The position numbers were made by a program, and so were the translations under genes. This document shows, piece after piece, positions 104-20,775 of a stretch of 64,000 bases of DNA. This stretch comes from Cellulosilyticum sp. Lineage in GTDB: Bacteria; Bacillota; Clostridia; Lachnospirales; Cellulosilyticaceae. Location of the stretch: NCBI GenBank assembly GCA_017941635.1, contig JAGAVZ010000135.1:1-64000 (forward strand). Direction: 5' to 3'. The number at the start of each line of letters is the position of its first letter. Position 1 is the stretch's first letter. The notes under the pieces were generated by a model. That model was not told where the DNA came from and did no database searches. It was given only the letters and a program-made list of their open reading frames with translations.

Positions 104-523
104 ATGAAAAAAATTTTATTATTACTGGCAGATGGCTTTGATGCCCTTGCAATCCCCGGTGGATTTGAGGAAGCAGGGTTTTATAAAGATGCCTATAGTG
201 AAGAATTTTTAAATCTTATTCGTGAATTTGATGCAGCTGGCAAACTTATTGCTTCTGTTTGTGTCGGTGCATTGCCTATTGCCAAAAGCGGCGTTCTCCA
301 AGGTCGAAATGCTACAACATACAATCTAGGCGATGGCTTACGTCAAAGGCAACTTGCCAATTTCGGCGTGCATGTACTTAAAGACCAACCGATTGTCGTG
401 GATGGTAATATTATCACTTCATATAATCCTTCTACTGCTTTTGACGTTGCTTTTACCTTATTAGAAATGCTCACCACCAAAGAAAACTGTGTACATATTC
501 AAAAATTAATGGGATTTGTATAA
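104..523 (+). pseudogene. DJ-1/PfpI family protein with an internal deletion
   Basis: The start has an AAAGGAG site 8-9 bases upstream. The first 12 residues (MKKILLLLADGF) match the first beta strand of DJ-1/PfpI proteins. They run straight into DALAIPGGFEEAGFY, which normally lies about 55 residues later. The nucleophile elbow with its cysteine (SVCVGA, about residues 51-56) and the C-terminal half are intact. The protein is 139 residues against about 190 for the family. The missing piece includes the conserved glutamate that supports the cysteine, so glyoxalase or chaperone activity is doubtful. The frame is kept across the junction, so a shortened protein may still be made. I treat it as a decayed gene; that reading is inferred from family structure. 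Confidence 0.75.
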
Positions 524-580
524 TGTTAGTTTCAAATCAAAATAAGTAAAAGCTTTCTATTCCAAAACCATTGAACTTAA

Positions 581-614
581 AAAGAGGCATTCCAATAAAT
601 AGGAATACCTCTTT
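581..614. terminator. bidirectional terminator
   Basis: Thirteen-base arms at 581-593 and 602-614 with one mismatch, which becomes a G-U pair in the minus transcript. It overlaps the stop codon of the minus-strand gene and lies between two convergent genes. Confidence 0.7.
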
Positions 615-993
615 ACATGATTGGACAATGTCCACGGTCTGTTTGTCCACCAAATACGTCTATACGTCTTTTTTTATTTAAGTAATTTAAAACTCTCATC
701 TTAAAGCGTCCTAATTCTTCATACTTATAAAAATGAGCTAAATCCGTTGCTAAAAATAAAGCATCTGTTACTAAGTATCTTAAATCCTTATGGTTAGCTT
801 CTTGCTCTGTTTCTATTTCTAAGGCACCAGATTGCTCCATCATTGCCTCAAATTGATTTCTTGTACTTTCTAATTTTAGTAGAATTTCTTCTTGAGTATA
901 GCCGGCAAAATCTTTTTCCACTAATTCCTCTAACCAGCTTACATACTGCTTACTAAGTTCTTTATAGTCTTCATAGATTTCTAATAATGTCAT
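613..993 (-). CDS. hypothetical protein, acidic helical
   Basis: A 126-residue soluble protein with a GGAAGG site before the ATG. It is rich in Glu, Leu and Lys, and residues about 1-95 look mainly helical. A basic patch (NKKRR) precedes a short C-terminal tail with the sequence GHCPIM. There is no signal peptide or membrane segment. I do not recognise a family. It is transcribed alone toward a terminator that overlaps its stop codon. Confidence 0.6.
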   Translation of the reverse strand: MTLLEIYEDYKELSKQYVSWLEELVEKDFAGYTQEEILLKLESTRNQFEAMMEQSGALEIETEQEANHKDLRYLVTDALFLATDLAHFYKYEELGRFKMRVLNYLNKKRRIDVFGGQTDRGHCPIM

Positions 994-1411
994 TTTACTG
1001 TTACCTTCCTTTTTTATATTATCGTTCCATTTTATAGTACATTATCACCTTAATATAGATTTCACATCTATAAATTTTATTGATTCATTGATTTTTGTTA
1101 TGTGAAATCCTCGAGAGAAACCAAATTAAATTGATCAATAACTCAAGTTTATGATTAGTTTTTCTATATACATCACAAATATATAGTTTCATCTTAGGCT
1201 AATGAATTTTTTAATATCTCGACCCTTTTAAAGTCTCCTCTATCTTATCATATCTCGTATAATCATCCTATTCCTTTTATAATAAACAGACGATTTAAAG
1301 AACTTATGTCATTCTTCTTCTAATATTTGCTATATCGACAAATCGCTTCCTATCTCATATATTAAATAAATCCTAATTCATATAGTCCGTATTTTGACCA
1401 AGGAGATATCT
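994..1411. other. AT-rich intergenic region, no gene seen
   Basis: A stretch of about 420 bases between two divergent starts. It is AT-rich with short runs only. I see no convincing RNA structure or coding region, and promoters for both flanks probably lie here. Confidence 0.5.
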
Positions 1412-1680
1412 ATGAACACTAACGAACATTTAGTGATTTCAGCATTTCATAAAACAATGTTAGAAACCGACTCTATCTATCAAAAATTCCAGAAGTTCAG
1501 CGGCCTTTCTGATGCCGAGTTTTGGAGCTTTGTTGCAATCAGGCTAGACCACTGTAAACACCAACACGAAATTTGTAGCAGTATGCTTTACTTACCATTT
1601 GTCATAAACTGAATCAATTTTTAGATATTGAAACTGAAAAAATGACAACACCCCCATTACATCTTTCAAAATATTTATAG
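1412..1680 (+). pseudogene. MarR-type regulator, N-terminal remnant
   Basis: The likely start is the ATG at 1412, with AAGGAG seven bases upstream; an in-frame TTG at 1394 lies before that site and is unlikely. Residues after the start (FHKTMLETDS, LSDAEFWSFVAIR, HQHEICSSML) match the N-terminal helices of MarR proteins found beside MATE pumps. The recognition helix (SRQTINSALK type) is absent and the frame stops at 1612. A second short open stretch in another frame runs on to 1680. It sits upstream of a decayed MATE gene, its probable former target. Confidence 0.6.
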
Positions 1681-1877
1681 GTTGGTTCATTCATCTCAAA
1701 ATATTGAGTGCGCTCGGTTACATACCTGGGTGCTTTTATTTTGCACATAACTAGCAATCTACAACTCATAAACTATTGAAATTCAAAGACTTCTTTATGT
1801 AGCCAAAGGTTAATACTCAAGCATTGCTATATCATTTTTTGCCTTGATAACTTTGCTACAAGCATATTATTGTGTCC

Positions 1878-1972
1878 TTCAATCATCTTATATGGACATG
1901 CTATTATATTATTCAATCATCTTATATGGGTATACTATTTCTCTATTTAATCATTTTATATACGCATCATTT
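1878..1972 (+). repeat. 2.8 copies of a 34-bp direct repeat
   Basis: Units start at 1878, 1912 and 1946. Each begins TTCAATCATCTTATATGG or a close variant, and the third is partial and diverged. The array lies directly upstream of the ribosome binding site of the MATE remnant. The unit length is not a multiple of three, so it is not coding. Confidence 0.7.
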
Positions 1973-1999
1973 AAAATTTATTTCAAGGAGGACTTTATC

Positions 2000-2466
2000 A
2001 TGAATATACAACTGTCAGATCATTTTACCTATAATAAATTAATTCGATTCGTCATACCTTCAATTGTTATGATGATTTTCACTTCTATTTATAGTGTAGT
2101 AGACGGATTATTCTAATGCTTGCTGCCTATATAGGTTCTAATCCACTTTCAAAAATCTTTGTAGGCTATGACCAAGAGCTTTTTGAAATGACAGCAAGAG
2201 GTTTCAGATTCTATTCCGTTTCATTCCTACTTTGTGGCTTTAGTATTTTTGGTTCTTCCTTCATTACAGCTCTTAATAACGGAATTGTATCTGCTGCAAT
2301 CTCCTTCCTTAGAACTGTTGTATTCCAAGTAGCTGCCGTACTGATTCTACCAATCTTTTGGGGAATTGACGGTATCTGGTCCGCCATTTCTGTAGCAGAA
2401 TTTTTAGCCTTAATCGTAACAATTGTTTTACTTGTGAAATTTAGAAAGAAATATAACTATGCCTAA
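2000..2466 (+). pseudogene. MATE efflux pump with a large central deletion
   Basis: A strong AAGGAGG site precedes the ATG at 2000. The first 39 codons (ending TSIYSVVDGLF) are the N-terminus of a MATE multidrug/Na+ antiporter and run into a stop at 2114-2116. The following frame, 2116-2466, encodes the last part of a MATE protein: LSKIFVGYDQE, the final membrane helices and a basic tail. About 300 residues of the usual 450 are missing, so it cannot form the twelve-helix pump. An intact MATE gene lies elsewhere at 28145-29515. Confidence 0.8.
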
Positions 2467-2503
2467 AAAAAATCAGGAGTAACGAGTTTACTCCTGATTT
2501 TCT
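2467..2503. terminator. terminator after MATE remnant
   Basis: A perfect 14-base stem (2469-2482 with 2488-2501), a five-base loop and T-rich flanks on both strands. Confidence 0.8.
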
Positions 2504-2661
2504 GCTTTATCTTAGCATAGCCAAAATCATGATTAACATATGGCATATATGCTCAATATCCCATGGTTAAGATACTCCTTTGCAAACTACATGTATGATT
2601 CGTCCTCTAAATAGACTATACTAATAATAAATATCTCAAGGAGTTAAAACTATCCATTACT

Positions 2662-2955
2662 ATGAAAAAAGATATTCATCACATACATGATAAAACTTAT
2701 AGAAGTTTCTTCGAAAATATCTTAATCAATGTAAATGACTATAGCAAAAAAGATTTAGTTACTATTCAAAATACTATATCTGCTATATTTTTACTCGATC
2801 AAAAAGTTGATTCTAAAGAATTTGTAGATAGAGCTGCTCTCGTTGCAACTCAGTTCAGTTTGCTTTCTAAAGAGCATAAACTAAAAATAAAGGATTGGTT
2901 AGACCACATTATAAAAGAACCAATTAGACAAGTCGTTATTGATTTAATAGAATAA
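2662..2955 (+). pseudogene. Rpn/PD-(D/E)XK transposase-like protein, core deleted
   Basis: The first 17 residues (HIHDKTYRSFF) are the typical N-terminus of Rpn family recombination-promoting nuclease/putative transposase proteins. They join directly to a segment that normally follows the nuclease fold (KDLVTIQNTISAIFLLDQ and the helices after it). The PD-(D/E)XK core is therefore absent and the product is 97 residues against about 300. The only AAGGAG site is about 18 bases from the ATG, poor spacing for translation. It is the fourth gene in a row with this kind of lesion. Confidence 0.6.
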
Positions 2956-2973: not shown

Positions 2974-5190
2974 CTACACTAACCAGTGACTCACTTCTCC
3001 AGTATGGCATAATGCAAGTCTATGAAGTGCTCTTGTACAAGCAATATAAAGTAATTGTTTATCTTCCTCTTCATAGTAATTTTCTTCATTTGCTTCGTAT
3101 ACGATAACTGCATCGTACTCTAATCCTTTTGCCATATAGATTGGCATAATAAGAGCTCCTTTGTGGAATTCCTCTGATTGAGTATTGAGCTTATGAAGCT
3201 CTACTTTATTGGCTAATTTGCTATACACATGGTTTACATCCTTTTGAGATTTACAGATAATCGCAATGGTTTCATAACCATTTTCTTTGTATTCATTAAC
3301 TTTATCTGTTACCCACTCTAACATTTGCCCTTCATTTTCTTGCTGAGCAATAATTGGCATTTCTTCATGTCTTTCGTAAGCAATAACAGCGTTGCTATTT
3401 TCTCTTAGCTTACGTACAAATTGGCTGATTTCATATGATGAACGATAACTCTTATCAAGGCTAAGTTTTAATGCTTTTTTGGGATTTAAGCATTTCATTA
3501 CTTCTTCGTATAAGCTTTCATCTTCATTCTTTTCAATCGTTTGACCAATATCTCCAAGAATGGTGTATTGCACGCCTCTAAAGATTTCGCCAAGCACCTT
3601 GTATTGTAATGGATAGTAATCTTGTGCCTCATCCACTAATACTTGTTTCATTTGAGGATATAAATGCTCATCTTCAAGTTTTAGTTTAAGGTAAAGCATT
3701 GCCATACCATCCTCATAGTTTACGAAGTCTGGTCTTAATGTTTTGGCTGTGTGTGCTCTCATACTCTCTACATTGTTTGGAAGTTTTAAATCCTTCGCTA
3801 ACTTGTTAAAGAGTTTTTCATCCTTAAAGAGTTTCATATATAAACCAAAGATATCAATTCTTGAGAAACTGCGAATGGTATCTGCTGTTTGTTGTCTGTA
3901 TTCGTTTAGCTTTTGGTCGATATCTTCATCTGCAAAGTAAGTGCCTTTTCCTTTAAGCTCTTTGAAAAGTTCTTTACGTTTTTCTTTTTCACATTCTCTA
4001 ATCTTTTGCTCTAAACCATGAGCAATACGTTTGAGTCTACGACCTGCTGCCATTTTAATCGCATTATCTAAGAAACTTTTACGAAGTTCTTCCTTATTAG
4101 CAATTAATTGCCCCGCATAATAAACGTCTTTAAACTCAATAATTTCCTTCTCAAAGGCTTCTACTAAACGGTCTAACATCTCCACAAAAGCTAAAGAACC
4201 TTTGAAACGGATTGTACTTCTAATTTTATTTCTATGCTTATTAGTAATCATAAACTCTAACTGACTATTTCTTGAGCGAAGTTTATGTCTGCCTTTAAAG
4301 TAAGCATCAAAGAACTCTTCCATTGTGCTATATTGTACGTTGTTTTCTCCAAGCTCAGGAAGAACTGTTGAAACATACTCACCAAATAAATGGTTAGGAG
4401 AGATAATCATGATATTATCACTTGTTAAGCCCTCACTCATGCGCTCATATAAAAGGAAAGCAATACGATGCATCGCAATCGATGTCTTACCACTACCTGC
4501 TACCCCTTGAACCATCAAAAGGTCATTTCCTTTATCACGAATAATTAAATCCTGCTCTTTTTGGATGGTCTCAACGATATTTTTCATATAGCTAGACGCA
4601 TTGTTTCCTAATGCTTGTTGAAGCAAATCATCCGTAATCGCTACTGAAGAATCAAAGAAATATTCAAGCTCACCCTTGCTGATTTCATACTGTCTTTTAA
4701 GAGACATTTGCCCTCTGATTTCACCACAAGGCGCCTCATAACTTGCCTCACCAATCTCATTTCTATAATACATACTCGCAATCGGTGCACGCCAGTCATA
4801 CACATAAACCTGATAGCTACCATCTTTCATGACATTTTGGTAACCAATATAGATTTGCTCTTCGTCGTATTCTTCTTCCTCCGTAAAATCAATACGTGCA
4901 AAATAAGGCTTGTTTAAAATACGTTTGTACTGTTCAAGCTTTCCTAACTTATGCTCATACTGAGCAGTTTCCATACGCTCCATTGTATGATATTGGCTGA
5001 TTTCAATATTTCTATCATAATCGTCTACCGTTGAAATACCACCTGCAAACATTTCTTTTCTAAGTGCTACAAGCTCTCTTTTTTGTTTGTCTACTAGCTC
5101 ACCGCTTGACTGAATCTCTTCTTCTAAGAAAGAAATGACTTCATTTAAATACTGCTTTTCTTGCTCTAAGATTGTGTTCTCTCCACTCAT
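2974..5190 (-). CDS. helD: HelD-like RNA polymerase-associated helicase
   Basis: A 738-residue UvrD/Rep-type SF1 ATPase. The N-terminal coiled coil (residues about 5-95) is followed by the HelD signature YVYDWRAPI (about 129-137), Walker A GVAGSGKT (229-236), a long helical insertion, Walker B VLVDEAQD (near 515-525), and the C-terminal helicase motifs GLEYDAVIVYE and ACTRALHRL. HelD proteins bind stalled or post-termination RNA polymerase and release it from DNA and RNA; that role is family knowledge. The start is set by GGAGGT six bases before the ATG. It is monocistronic. Confidence 0.9.
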   Translation of the reverse strand: MSGENTILEQEKQYLNEVISFLEEEIQSSGELVDKQKRELVALRKEMFAGGISTVDDYDRNIEISQYHTMERMETAQYEHKLGKLEQYKRILNKPYFARIDFTEEEEYDEEQIYIGYQNVMKDGSYQVYVYDWRAPIASMYYRNEIGEASYEAPCGEIRGQMSLKRQYEISKGELEYFFDSSVAITDDLLQQALGNNASSYMKNIVETIQKEQDLIIRDKGNDLLMVQGVAGSGKTSIAMHRIAFLLYERMSEGLTSDNIMIISPNHLFGEYVSTVLPELGENNVQYSTMEEFFDAYFKGRHKLRSRNSQLEFMITNKHRNKIRSTIRFKGSLAFVEMLDRLVEAFEKEIIEFKDVYYAGQLIANKEELRKSFLDNAIKMAAGRRLKRIAHGLEQKIRECEKEKRKELFKELKGKGTYFADEDIDQKLNEYRQQTADTIRSFSRIDIFGLYMKLFKDEKLFNKLAKDLKLPNNVESMRAHTAKTLRPDFVNYEDGMAMLYLKLKLEDEHLYPQMKQVLVDEAQDYYPLQYKVLGEIFRGVQYTILGDIGQTIEKNEDESLYEEVMKCLNPKKALKLSLDKSYRSSYEISQFVRKLRENSNAVIAYERHEEMPIIAQQENEGQMLEWVTDKVNEYKENGYETIAIICKSQKDVNHVYSKLANKVELHKLNTQSEEFHKGALIMPIYMAKGLEYDAVIVYEANEENYYEEEDKQLLYIACTRALHRLALCHTGEVSHWLV

Positions 5191-5615: not shown

Positions 5616-5650
5616 ACTATTAGTATTACAGATGAAAGAAGGTGAATATA

Positions 5651-6877
5651 GTGCCAAGCTTAAAATTTAGTGAGGTTTTCAAACCTGGCACCTATCCAGA
5701 ACATACATACGTTGAACGTACTAGCAAAGACTCTATGTTTTCATATGAACAAAGATTAAATATGGCTTTAGGTCTAGATGGTTTTTTAGTGTGCATTACT
5801 GGTCCATCTAAAACCGGAAAAACTGTTCTTTGTGAAAAGGTTATAGGGCTAGATAATATCGTAAGTCTAAATGGAAATGACTTCGAGAAATCAGGTGACT
5901 TTTGGGGTGCTATTGCACTTAAAGCAGGGATTCCTTTGTCAGGAACACAAGGCACTACCAATACAGTCAATCTGCCTGCTGAATCTATCATGCAGTCTGC
6001 AACTCAAAATTATGTTGTAAATAAAGATGCGGTTGTAAAATACTTCGTAGACAATGAAAAAGTACTCGTATTAGATGATTTTCACTATGCTTCTGATGAT
6101 ATGCAGTATGAGGCAGCATGTCAGCTAAAAGATGTCATTCGTAGAAACTTTAAAGCAGTTGTTATTTCTTTACCTCACCGTTCAGATGATCCATTAAGAC
6201 AAAATCCTGATTTAAATGGAAGAATTCAGTTTATTGAACTTCAGCCTTGGACAGATGAGGAATTAATTCAAATTCCACAAAAAGGATTCCAGAAATTAAA
6301 TGTTGTAGCTAGCCCAGAAATTCTTTCTCAAATGACTTTAGAAAGTGCAGCTTCTCCTCAGCTTATGCAATATATCTGCTTTAATCTAAGCTTAGCTGCA
6401 AATCAAAAATCGATTAATACCGTTACTCATGAACTACTACAACTTAGTTGCCGAATCACAACCGTCAATTTAGATTGTAAAGCCATTGTAGACTATATCA
6501 AATTCGGACCACCTAGTAGAGGTCAAAAAAGAGTTAAATATCAATTAACTAATGGTAAAAGCGTTGATATCTATGAATTACTTCTCTATATCATTGCTGA
6601 AAATCCACCTTATACCAAATTACCACTAGAAGAAATCAAAAAAAGATCAGATGCTCTTATTGTCGGCATAAGCGAAGCACCACATATTAGAAAAGAAAGT
6701 TCTCTGAGTAAGCCAAACTCTACAAAATTAAAAGATGCACTTGGTAAAACTCAAGAACGCTTAAAACAAGAAAAAGCATTCTACAATGTAATCGAATGTA
6801 AAGATAATGCTTTATACGTTCTAGAATCTCTATTTTTATTCTATTTAAGATGGAGTAATTGGAAAGAGAGGGATTAA
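5651..6877 (+). CDS. P-loop ATPase of a putative two-gene defence system
   Basis: About 408 residues. The best start is the GTG at 5651, with AGAAGGTG six bases upstream; an in-frame GTG at 5642 overlaps that site. Walker A GPSKTGKT is near residues 51-58 and Walker B VLVLDDFH near 138-145. A beta strand ending SLPHRSDD resembles sensor 1 of AAA/STAND ATPases. A helical region follows, then a C-terminal half of unknown fold. It is soluble. The downstream nuclease starts four bases after the stop, so the two are co-translated. The arrangement resembles NTPase-plus-nuclease defence modules, with the ATPase as sensor or switch; this is inference. I do not recognise a named system. Confidence 0.7.
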   Translation: MPSLKFSEVFKPGTYPEHTYVERTSKDSMFSYEQRLNMALGLDGFLVCITGPSKTGKTVLCEKVIGLDNIVSLNGNDFEKSGDFWGAIALKAGIPLSGTQGTTNTVNLPAESIMQSATQNYVVNKDAVVKYFVDNEKVLVLDDFHYASDDMQYEAACQLKDVIRRNFKAVVISLPHRSDDPLRQNPDLNGRIQFIELQPWTDEELIQIPQKGFQKLNVVASPEILSQMTLESAASPQLMQYICFNLSLAANQKSINTVTHELLQLSCRITTVNLDCKAIVDYIKFGPPSRGQKRVKYQLTNGKSVDIYELLLYIIAENPPYTKLPLEEIKKRSDALIVGISEAPHIRKESSLSKPNSTKLKDALGKTQERLKQEKAFYNVIECKDNALYVLESLFLFYLRWSNWKERD

Positions 6878-6881
6878 AATA

Positions 6882-7646
6882 GTGTCCGACTTCACTTTGC
6901 TTATTACAGCTGCTAACCAAATCAAAGAATTAGCTGCATCAGATTCTCAATTAGCAATAGAAAAGTTTTTAGAATGGAAAGAGCAAGTCAAATTGGAAAC
7001 TGATACACTCTCAATTTATCCAAGGATTTGTGCTGCTCTAATGATTCAAGGTAATACTTTTTCACAACAGCCTGATATTATCTCGGTTATTTCTTCTATT
7101 GACAAAGTGCTTCTTTTATTAAATCGTATTTCTACTTTAGAGACAGCAGCAAACGAACTAACTGAGCAATCTGCTTTCATTGTTGTAAGACGTATTCTCA
7201 GAAACTTTCATAAGCATCTGGAAGAGATGTATCAAAAGAGTGTTCACGGAAAAGGTACCCTTAAACAAACCGATTTAGATAAAATAACGCTAGGTAATGA
7301 ATATGATGTACAAAGAATGCTCTTTTCATTGCTTAAACCAATATTTCCTACTGCTCGGGTTGAAGTATTTGGTGATGGCGGATATACAGGTACGCGATAT
7401 GATATTTTTATTAGTGAATATAACCTTGTTATTGAAGTAAAATGTACCAGAACAAGTATGACAGAAAAGCATTTAACCGAAGAAATCGGCTCTGATATAT
7501 GTCATTATGTAGATCATCACCTTATGTTCTTTATCTTTGATAAACAAAAAATTATAAGCAACCCTGATGCTTTTGAAGCTAGATATACTAAATCTTTTGA
7601 TGGAAAAGATGTAGAAACATATGTTGTACAACCTATCATAATTTAA
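6882..7646 (+). CDS. DpnII/MboI-type PD-(D/E)XK nuclease
   Basis: 254 residues with a GTG start and GAGAGGGA upstream. Residues 1-125 are helical and unrecognised. Residues 138-225 match the DpnII-MboI restriction-nuclease fold: GNEYDVQRML, GYTGTRYDIF with D174, then VIEVKCTR with E185 and K187, and a DICHYV helix. The PD-(D/E)XK residues are all present, so DNA cleavage is plausible. No methyltransferase is nearby, so it is not a classic restriction-modification pair. Coupling to the ATPase suggests the nuclease is the effector and the ATPase its trigger. Confidence 0.72.
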   Translation: MSDFTLLITAANQIKELAASDSQLAIEKFLEWKEQVKLETDTLSIYPRICAALMIQGNTFSQQPDIISVISSIDKVLLLLNRISTLETAANELTEQSAFIVVRRILRNFHKHLEEMYQKSVHGKGTLKQTDLDKITLGNEYDVQRMLFSLLKPIFPTARVEVFGDGGYTGTRYDIFISEYNLVIEVKCTRTSMTEKHLTEEIGSDICHYVDHHLMFFIFDKQKIISNPDAFEARYTKSFDGKDVETYVVQPIII

Positions 7647-17967: not shown

Positions 17968-18360
17968 TTATGCAGTACAAAAAATTATAATTCTATTCAA
18001 TATAAAAGAGAGCCCTCCTGCGGCTCTCTTTACTTTCTTTGAAATCATGCGTGGGTTATCATGGTTCTCCATAAATAATGCCTGCCAACAACTATTCCCA
18101 AGGGTTCTAATAGACTTTAGCCAGAATTTTTTAAGATAGTTCAAATCATATGGGTAATCGTCATAGCGTTTATGCCCTGTGGTTTCCAGATGGTCAAAGG
18201 AAAAGACCATATCCAATTCTTTTCGCTCAGATGAAGTAAGTTGTTTGGTCATGTCTATTAGAGTCCTTAAAGCTTCTAGAATAAATCTGATAAACCACCT
18301 TTTCCCCATTTGCAAGAGGAGCTTATTTACAACATCATGGCCTATTGGATTAGCATACAC
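17968..18360 (-). pseudogene. GH13 alpha-glucosidase fragment
   Basis: Pieces of a family 13 oligo-1,6-glucosidase are recognisable: ANPIGHDVVNKLLLQMGK, then KELDMVFSFDHLE, YDLNYLKKFW and LFMENHDNPRMISK. The N-terminal barrel with the catalytic Asp, the glutamate region and the C-terminal domain are missing. The frame ends by reading into a terminator hairpin, so everything after the HDNPR motif is gone. At least two deletions are needed to explain it. Confidence 0.7.
18005..18031. terminator. bidirectional terminator fused to GH13 remnant
   Basis: A ten-base perfect stem (18005-18014 with 18022-18031) and T-rich flanks. It lies within the reading frame of the GH13 remnant. Confidence 0.75.
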
Positions 18361-18446
18361 TTCCTTTAGCTTGCTCTCTAAGATTAATGGCCTTAATCTA
18401 CTTATCTATATAATCTCCTCACAATTTTTCTAAATCCTATAAAAAA

Positions 18447-19787: not shown

Positions 19788-20465
19788 GTGTTTCATACTC
19801 GAAATCTATTGCAACTTCTACACAAAACCAGCCTAATCGTTTTACTAGCCCTTTCCATTATTATGTTATTTCATATCTTCATTATGACTCTTGGGACAAG
19901 TCTTATGTTTTGGCATACTGATTCTACCCCCTTTAACGTGGCACTCATCACATTTTTATATTATGTTATTCCAGTAATTGCACTACTTTCATTCAATCTA
20001 ATTATTGGCCAACTGATTCATATATACGACTCCATCTCACGTACACCAAAATCTAAATGCAACAAATGTAGCGACATCCCTACTGATGAGGTTAAAAAAT
20101 TCAATTTCATTTCTGAGGATAAGCTCAAACATTCTAAATCTAGAGCCGTCTCTAAGGAGGACTCTAAAAAATCCAAATCCAAATCCGGAACCGTCCCTAA
20201 GGAGGACTCTAAAAAATCCAAGTCCAAATCCGGAACCGTCCCTAAGGAGGACTCTAAAAAATCCAAGTCCAAATCTAGAACCGTCCCTAAGGAGGACTCT
20301 AAAAAATCCAAGTCCAAATCCGGAACCGTCCCTAAGGAGGACTCTAAAAAATCCAAGTCCAAATCCGGAACCGTCCCTAAGGAGGACTCTAAAAAATCCA
20401 AGTCCAAATCCGGAACCGTCTCTAAAGGAAGTACAAAAGTTGCCTTTAAACGAAAACAAGCGTAA
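19788..20465 (+). CDS. two-helix membrane protein with a Lys/Ser repeat tail
   Basis: 225 residues with a GTG start and AGGTGA upstream. Two hydrophobic helices span about residues 14-42 and 50-82. A short Cys-containing stretch (CNKCSD) is followed by six 15-residue repeats of the type KEDSKKSKSKSGTVP and a basic end. The tail is strongly positive and probably disordered; it may touch nucleic acid, teichoic acid or phospholipid. No family is recognised. The repeat DNA is nearly identical between units, so it is a young or homogenised minisatellite and its copy number is probably variable. Confidence 0.65.
   Translation: MFHTRNLLQLLHKTSLIVLLALSIIMLFHIFIMTLGTSLMFWHTDSTPFNVALITFLYYVIPVIALLSFNLIIGQLIHIYDSISRTPKSKCNKCSDIPTDEVKKFNFISEDKLKHSKSRAVSKEDSKKSKSKSGTVPKEDSKKSKSKSGTVPKEDSKKSKSKSRTVPKEDSKKSKSKSGTVPKEDSKKSKSKSGTVPKEDSKKSKSKSGTVSKGSTKVAFKRKQA
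20154..20423 (+). repeat. 45-bp coding minisatellite, six units
   Basis: Units start at 20154, 20199, 20244, 20289, 20334 and 20379. They are almost identical, and a partial diverged unit lies just before. Each carries AAGGAGG, a perfect anti-16S match. The length of 45 keeps the frame and also leaves several other frames open on both strands. Confidence 0.95.
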
Positions 20466-20510
20466 AAAGAAGAGCCAATCGTGCAAAATTACACGATTGG
20501 CTCTTCTTTT
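20465..20510. terminator. bidirectional terminator
   Basis: A perfect 19-base stem (20465-20483 with 20492-20510). It serves the repeat-protein gene on plus and the cold-shock gene on minus. Confidence 0.92.
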
Positions 20511-20525
20511 GATTATTATTTCAAA

Positions 20526-20723
20526 CTAAGCTTTAACTACGTTTTCAGCTTGTGGTCCACGGTTACCTTCAACGATATCGAAAGTTACTGCTTGACCTTC
20601 TTCTAAAGTTTTGAAACCTTCACCTTGGATAGCTGAGAAGTGTACGAATACATCGTCACCGTCTTCTCTAGAGATGAAACCAAAACCTTTTTCTGCGTTA
20701 AACCATTTAACTGTACCTGTCAT
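20526..20723 (-). CDS. cold-shock protein
   Basis: 65 residues with AAGGAGG upstream. A complete [18 protein letters not shown] (RNP1), [10 protein letters not shown] (RNP2), and the usual acidic end. It binds single-stranded RNA or DNA as a chaperone. Confidence 0.95.
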
Positions 20724-20775
20724 GTTAGGTACCTCCTTAGATTAAAAAATATAAACCGATATGTAAAAACAAAAA

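Follow-up and report, generated by a model that had tools for sequence, protein, structure and literature searches.

Bacterial pseudogenes commonly arise by deletion. In Salmonella, 346 of 378 pseudogenes carried a single inactivating mutation, and short deletions predominated (141 of the 346), according to the accessible part of that survey (PMC2916853); in the haloarchaeon Haloquadratum walsbyi, the available text of a strain comparison describes repeat-mediated deletions with repeats of 4 to 20 bp (PMC3119063). A literature search for bacterial pseudogenes with deletion and microhomology found no paper. The damaged genes described here resemble the Salmonella cases, as far as these are set out in the accessible part of the source, in appearing to be recent losses without further decay (PMC2916853). 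They differ in extent, since losses exceeding 20% of the gene length affect only a small fraction of the Salmonella pseudogenes in that text, whereas about 28% of the DJ-1 gene and about 65% of the MATE gene are missing here. They also differ from H. walsbyi in how precisely the breakpoints can be placed: the available text gives 98.6% identity between the paired strains where they share sequence, with exact breakpoints (PMC3119063), while our proxy relatives diverge from the window by 17 to 25% at the DNA level and only one junction is statistically clear.

The window, by which we mean the whole stretch of DNA analyzed, corresponds to bases 1 to 64,000 of the 81,978-base contig C282 in a metagenome-type assembly (G000; 3.8 Mb, 296 contigs, 97.45% complete, 5.92% contaminated). 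We compared it with five same-genus genomes, G001 (a single contig of 4,714,237 bases), G002, G004, G005, and G006; contig C53 of G002 is collinear with the window and provides collinear flanks for the MATE transporter and alpha-amylase genes. A preliminary description of this DNA had reported four neighboring genes that keep both ends but have lost their middles. The middles of the DJ-1/PfpI, MATE, and Rpn genes are indeed gone, but the Rpn gene has lost its 3′ end as well, the MarR gene is uncertain, and a fifth damaged gene, for a GH13 alpha-amylase, lies outside the cluster (Table 1). For DJ-1, MATE, Rpn, and the amylase we found both an intact orthologue and a continuous stretch that is missing from the window copy. 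The intact 738-aa gene beside the cluster is one that we take to encode a HelD-like helicase.

Table 1. Positions in the window of the damaged genes, their junctions, and adjoining features
Feature	Position	Strand	Basis
Assembly-graph node, an exact overlap of 141 nt shared with one end of contig C107	1-141		100% identity to C107:1-141
DJ-1/PfpI gene with 168-bp in-frame internal deletion	104-523	+	139 aa versus 196 aa intact
DJ-1 junction, with shared TTTGA (137-141) as part of an imperfect 14-nt repeat found in the intact relative	131-144	+	Alignment with G002
Intact gene inside the cluster, 126 aa, function unassigned	613-993	-	Comparison with G002
MarR-type regulator, 5′ stub	1409-1612	+	Weak matches
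Possible out-of-frame MarR 3′ remnant	1585-1677	+	Weak; one of four comparisons
MATE 5′ piece, 38 codons, stop right at junction (2114-2116)	2000-2116	+	Comparison with G002
MATE 3′ piece, 116 codons, other frame	2116-2466	+	Comparison with G002
Rpn gene, in-frame loss of ~142 codons at 2710-2718 (codons 17-19) and loss of the 3′ end	2662-2955	+	G004 and G005 copies
Intact 738-aa gene beside the cluster	2974-5190	-	88% identity to G002 over whole length
GH13 alpha-amylase relic, at least 2 internal deletions and lost 3′ part	17968-18396	-	Comparison with G002

The DJ-1 gene conforms to its preliminary description as an internal deletion that keeps the frame. Aligned with the intact proteins of two same-genus genomes (196 to 197 aa in G002 and G001), its product lacks about 56 codons (roughly 13 to 69). 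The gene is full length at 79 of the 80 related public-genome loci that we fetched, the last of which (L047) aligned only from residue 52. The intact G002 copy matches Pfam profile PF01965 from position 1 to 164, compared with only positions 60 to 164 (of 165) for the window copy; much of the first half of the domain has been removed, including Glu16, which is present in 79 of 79 scorable orthologues. The absence of this conserved region would be expected to cost the protein its function.

The MATE gene has likewise lost its middle while keeping both ends, as first described: codons 1 to 38 and 325 to 443 of the intact 443-aa G002 protein are retained, and the loss of about 866 bp between them breaks the frame. 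Neither piece matches Pfam PF01554, which the intact homologue does match, and the relic is assigned through homology to the latter. The junction itself (2111 to 2118) creates the motif TAATG, in which the stop codon that ends the 5′ piece shares bases with a start codon for the 3′ piece (116 codons), so that the latter could be translated. All that G004 keeps of its MATE gene is about 33 codons from the 3′ (C-terminal) end.

The Rpn gene was identified by the same kind of comparison, its product having no match to Pfam PF04754 (Transposase_31) while two homologues (L122 and L116) match it. Residues 1 to 19 are identical to the G004 copy, residues 17 to 97 match residues 159 to 239 of the 336-aa G005 copy at 40% identity, and the last ~97 residues of the G005 protein have no counterpart in the window, so that most of the Transposase_31 domain and the C terminus are gone. 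The internal deletion in the preliminary description is thus borne out, though the retention of both ends is not. The G004 copy (L116; positions 1451 to 2240 of G004:C71) lies in the opposite orientation on the other side of the MATE remnant and has its own, different, frame-breaking internal deletion. By homology, the relic at 2662 belongs to the same kind of gene (Transposase_31) as the Rpn nucleases with an intragenic antitoxin described in the accessible text of PMC10327210; unlike the genes presented there, it has been stripped of most of its nuclease domain and of the C-terminal region in which the antitoxin would lie. We considered whether the gene might have been retained for its antitoxin only and rejected this, as the C-terminal part is missing.

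The MarR gene had been described as cut short. The stub is real, but its identity as a MarR-type regulator rests on weak matches: relatives were found in 4 of 391 other genomes of the order (E values of 4e-5 to 4e-4) and in none of 30 near genomes, and the stub has no Pfam MarR hit, while the best related protein, L132, matches Pfam MarR_2 and MarR. When the 30-aa peptide of the possible 3′ remnant was compared with four MarR-type proteins, one alignment was equaled by 7 of 1,000 shuffles and the other three by 854 to 948 of 1,000.

Several other elements lie in this part of the window. An element of ~120 bp at 1050 to 1175, containing an inverted repeat (about 1058 to 1110), is present once in this genome and in several copies in related genomes at 71 to 84% identity; no Rfam family reached its gathering score there. 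At 5642 to 7646 is a two-gene module, an AAA ATPase with a DpnII/MboI-type nuclease, which has partial PADLOC matches to PDC-S59 and Aga_Helical-REase, is absent from the collinear G002 contig, and is possibly a defense insertion. Farther along, the minus strand at 20471 to 20812 matches the Rfam cspA thermoregulator just over threshold (84.1 versus 78 bits), with several similar copies of 20524 to 20752 in this and related genomes, and a tandem repeat of ~45 bases occupies 20050 to 20465 within a plus-strand open reading frame (19788 to 20465).

Comparison with the collinear G002 contig also revealed the amylase relic, ~15 kb from the cluster. The intact G002 enzyme has 643 aa, of which the window retains codons 7 to 52, about 97 to 112, and 353 to 426. 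This gene too has lost its middle, and therefore the pattern is not confined to the four-gene cluster. Judging from the loss of most of each gene, both the MATE transporter and the amylase have presumably lost their function. Across 60 G002 proteins with a counterpart in G000, three genes (four junctions) show internal loss in G000, compared with 0 of 58 in the reverse direction; this is a small sample (327 kb of G000 and 1.28 Mb of G002), in which C282, G002 C53, and a piece of C4 were fetched because they hold cases and the rest was taken mostly by contig number. Because all three genes lie on the case-chosen C282, a genome-wide excess of internal losses in G000 is unsupported.

The preliminary description had suggested deletion between short direct repeats, and the junctions differ in how far they agree. 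At the DJ-1 breakpoints, the intact G002 gene carries GATGGATTTGAAGC and GATGATTTTGATGC, which are identical at 11 of 14 positions with an exact homology of 5 nt at most; only 0.055% of 20,000 random position pairs within the gene were as good (p 0.00055), while the corresponding values with G001 are 8 of 14 and 5.5%. The two sides of the Rpn gene overlap at codons 17 to 19 by FEN/FEY, sharing FE (at the protein level only), and amylase junction 2 matches at 9 of 14 positions (p 0.02, marginal). The MATE junction and amylase junction 1 have no excess homology (4 of 14 each, p 0.79) when examined with a proxy that is 17 to 25% diverged, a distance at which short junction homologies can be lost or gained. 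Taken on the sequences at hand, short-repeat deletion appears well supported for DJ-1 and plausible for Rpn and amylase junction 2, where the evidence is suggestive; the MATE deletion and amylase junction 1 could reflect end joining, or repeats that sequence divergence has since obscured. The deletions may have arisen by slipped-strand replication or by end joining at short homologies, and they may have been tolerated because the genes were dispensable. A dedicated cutter, whether the mobile Rpn nuclease itself or the DpnII/MboI-type module, is a scarcely credible source of the cluster: one nuclease-type gene does lie within it and another adjoins it, but the amylase deletions are 15 kb away, Rpn is itself a victim, and apart from TTYGA, present at two junctions, we saw no target sequence that the junctions have in common.

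What remains of these genes still looks like selected sequence. Measured against G002, pN/pS is 0.07 for the MATE 5′ piece, 0.16 for the MATE 3′ piece, 0.17 for the amylase, and 0.24 for DJ-1, compared with 0.12 to 0.44 in seven intact neighbors. This similarity indicates that the kept pieces were under selection as genes during most of the period after the two species diverged, and therefore that the losses are recent. Recency would also explain why stop codons and small frameshifts have not accumulated: what survives of MATE, DJ-1, and Rpn shows no stop-codon decay within it, the one exception being the shift of frame where the two MATE pieces meet. The preliminary remark that this is not the usual decay is put too strongly, deletion being itself a usual route to bacterial pseudogenes. 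Very probably, then, the damaged genes are pseudogenes that arose recently in a Clostridia-like bacterium; in each, inactivation took one deletion or a small number of them, with ends that fall within the gene. We regard it as highly unlikely that the shortened DJ-1 and Rpn products are instead selected, functional mini-proteins. Both junctions keep the frame, and the kept part of DJ-1 has the low pN/pS just given; however, each deletion had a one-in-three chance of staying in frame, the low pN/pS mostly reflects time before the deletion, DJ-1 is without much of its first domain half including Glu16, Rpn is without most of its domain and its C terminus, and MATE, the amylase, and probably MarR are plainly dead.

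Recent gene loss has also to be weighed against an error of assembly, in which chimeric reads or a collapse joined the halves of intact genes. The DJ-1 junction lies exactly at a graph node at the contig end, and the bin is both fragmented (296 contigs) and contaminated (5.92%), as such an error might have it. The repeats at the junction, however (5 nt exact, 14 nt imperfect), are much shorter than even the lowest k in common use (21, according to the MEGAHIT lists in the accessible part of PMC10914622), and since they fall far below any k, a de Bruijn graph cannot collapse there without junction-spanning reads; we therefore rejected assembly collapse at repeats. Moreover, the contig continues unbroken across the MATE, Rpn, and amylase junctions, and the separate G004 assembly has its own MATE and Rpn deletions. 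An artifact is, in our judgment, quite unlikely, and we retain the reading of these genes as recently inactivated by deletion.

The node at the contig end bears on the state of the DJ-1 deletion in the sampled population. Contig ends that overlap by exactly maxK are the mark of a breakpoint in MEGAHIT assemblies, and the list of k values quoted in the accessible text of PMC10914622 goes up to 141; other pairs of contigs in the same assembly also share exact 141-nt end overlaps (C160/C288, C250/C51, and C190/C166), and a search of the far ends of C107 and C282 found no 141-nt overlap. The sequence shared with C107 covers the DJ-1 promoter region and the first 38 nt of the gene, and C107 carries here the same divergent LysR-type neighbor that adjoins the intact 196-aa DJ-1 gene of G002. 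Because the shared node ends at base 141, the first base past it is 142, at the DJ-1 junction. The codon at 140 to 142 is GAT in the window, derived from the far side of the deletion, compared with GAA or GAG in 79 of 79 scorable orthologues (L047, the 80th, was unscorable). An intact allele with the same upstream sequence would thus leave the window path exactly at base 142, which points to a second path, probably an intact gene, in the sample.

We lean slightly toward a deletion that is still segregating, such that intact and deleted DJ-1 alleles would coexist in the sampled population, with the graph fork preserved at the exact junction base. Our search of the contigs in the bin found no intact DJ-1 copy. 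The contig also runs unbroken past the junction, where an otherwise identical intact strain should rejoin it and break the contig just after; the second path must therefore be a diverged strain or something else. It is possible though unlikely that the fork arose on the upstream side and that the DJ-1 junction lies there by coincidence.

Together, these genes leave the known picture of bacterial gene decay unchanged and provide a clear small example of its early stage, in which the middles of genes are gone while their ends still look selected. If the DJ-1 deletion is indeed segregating, overlaps between contig ends could by themselves reveal live gene loss in metagenomes.
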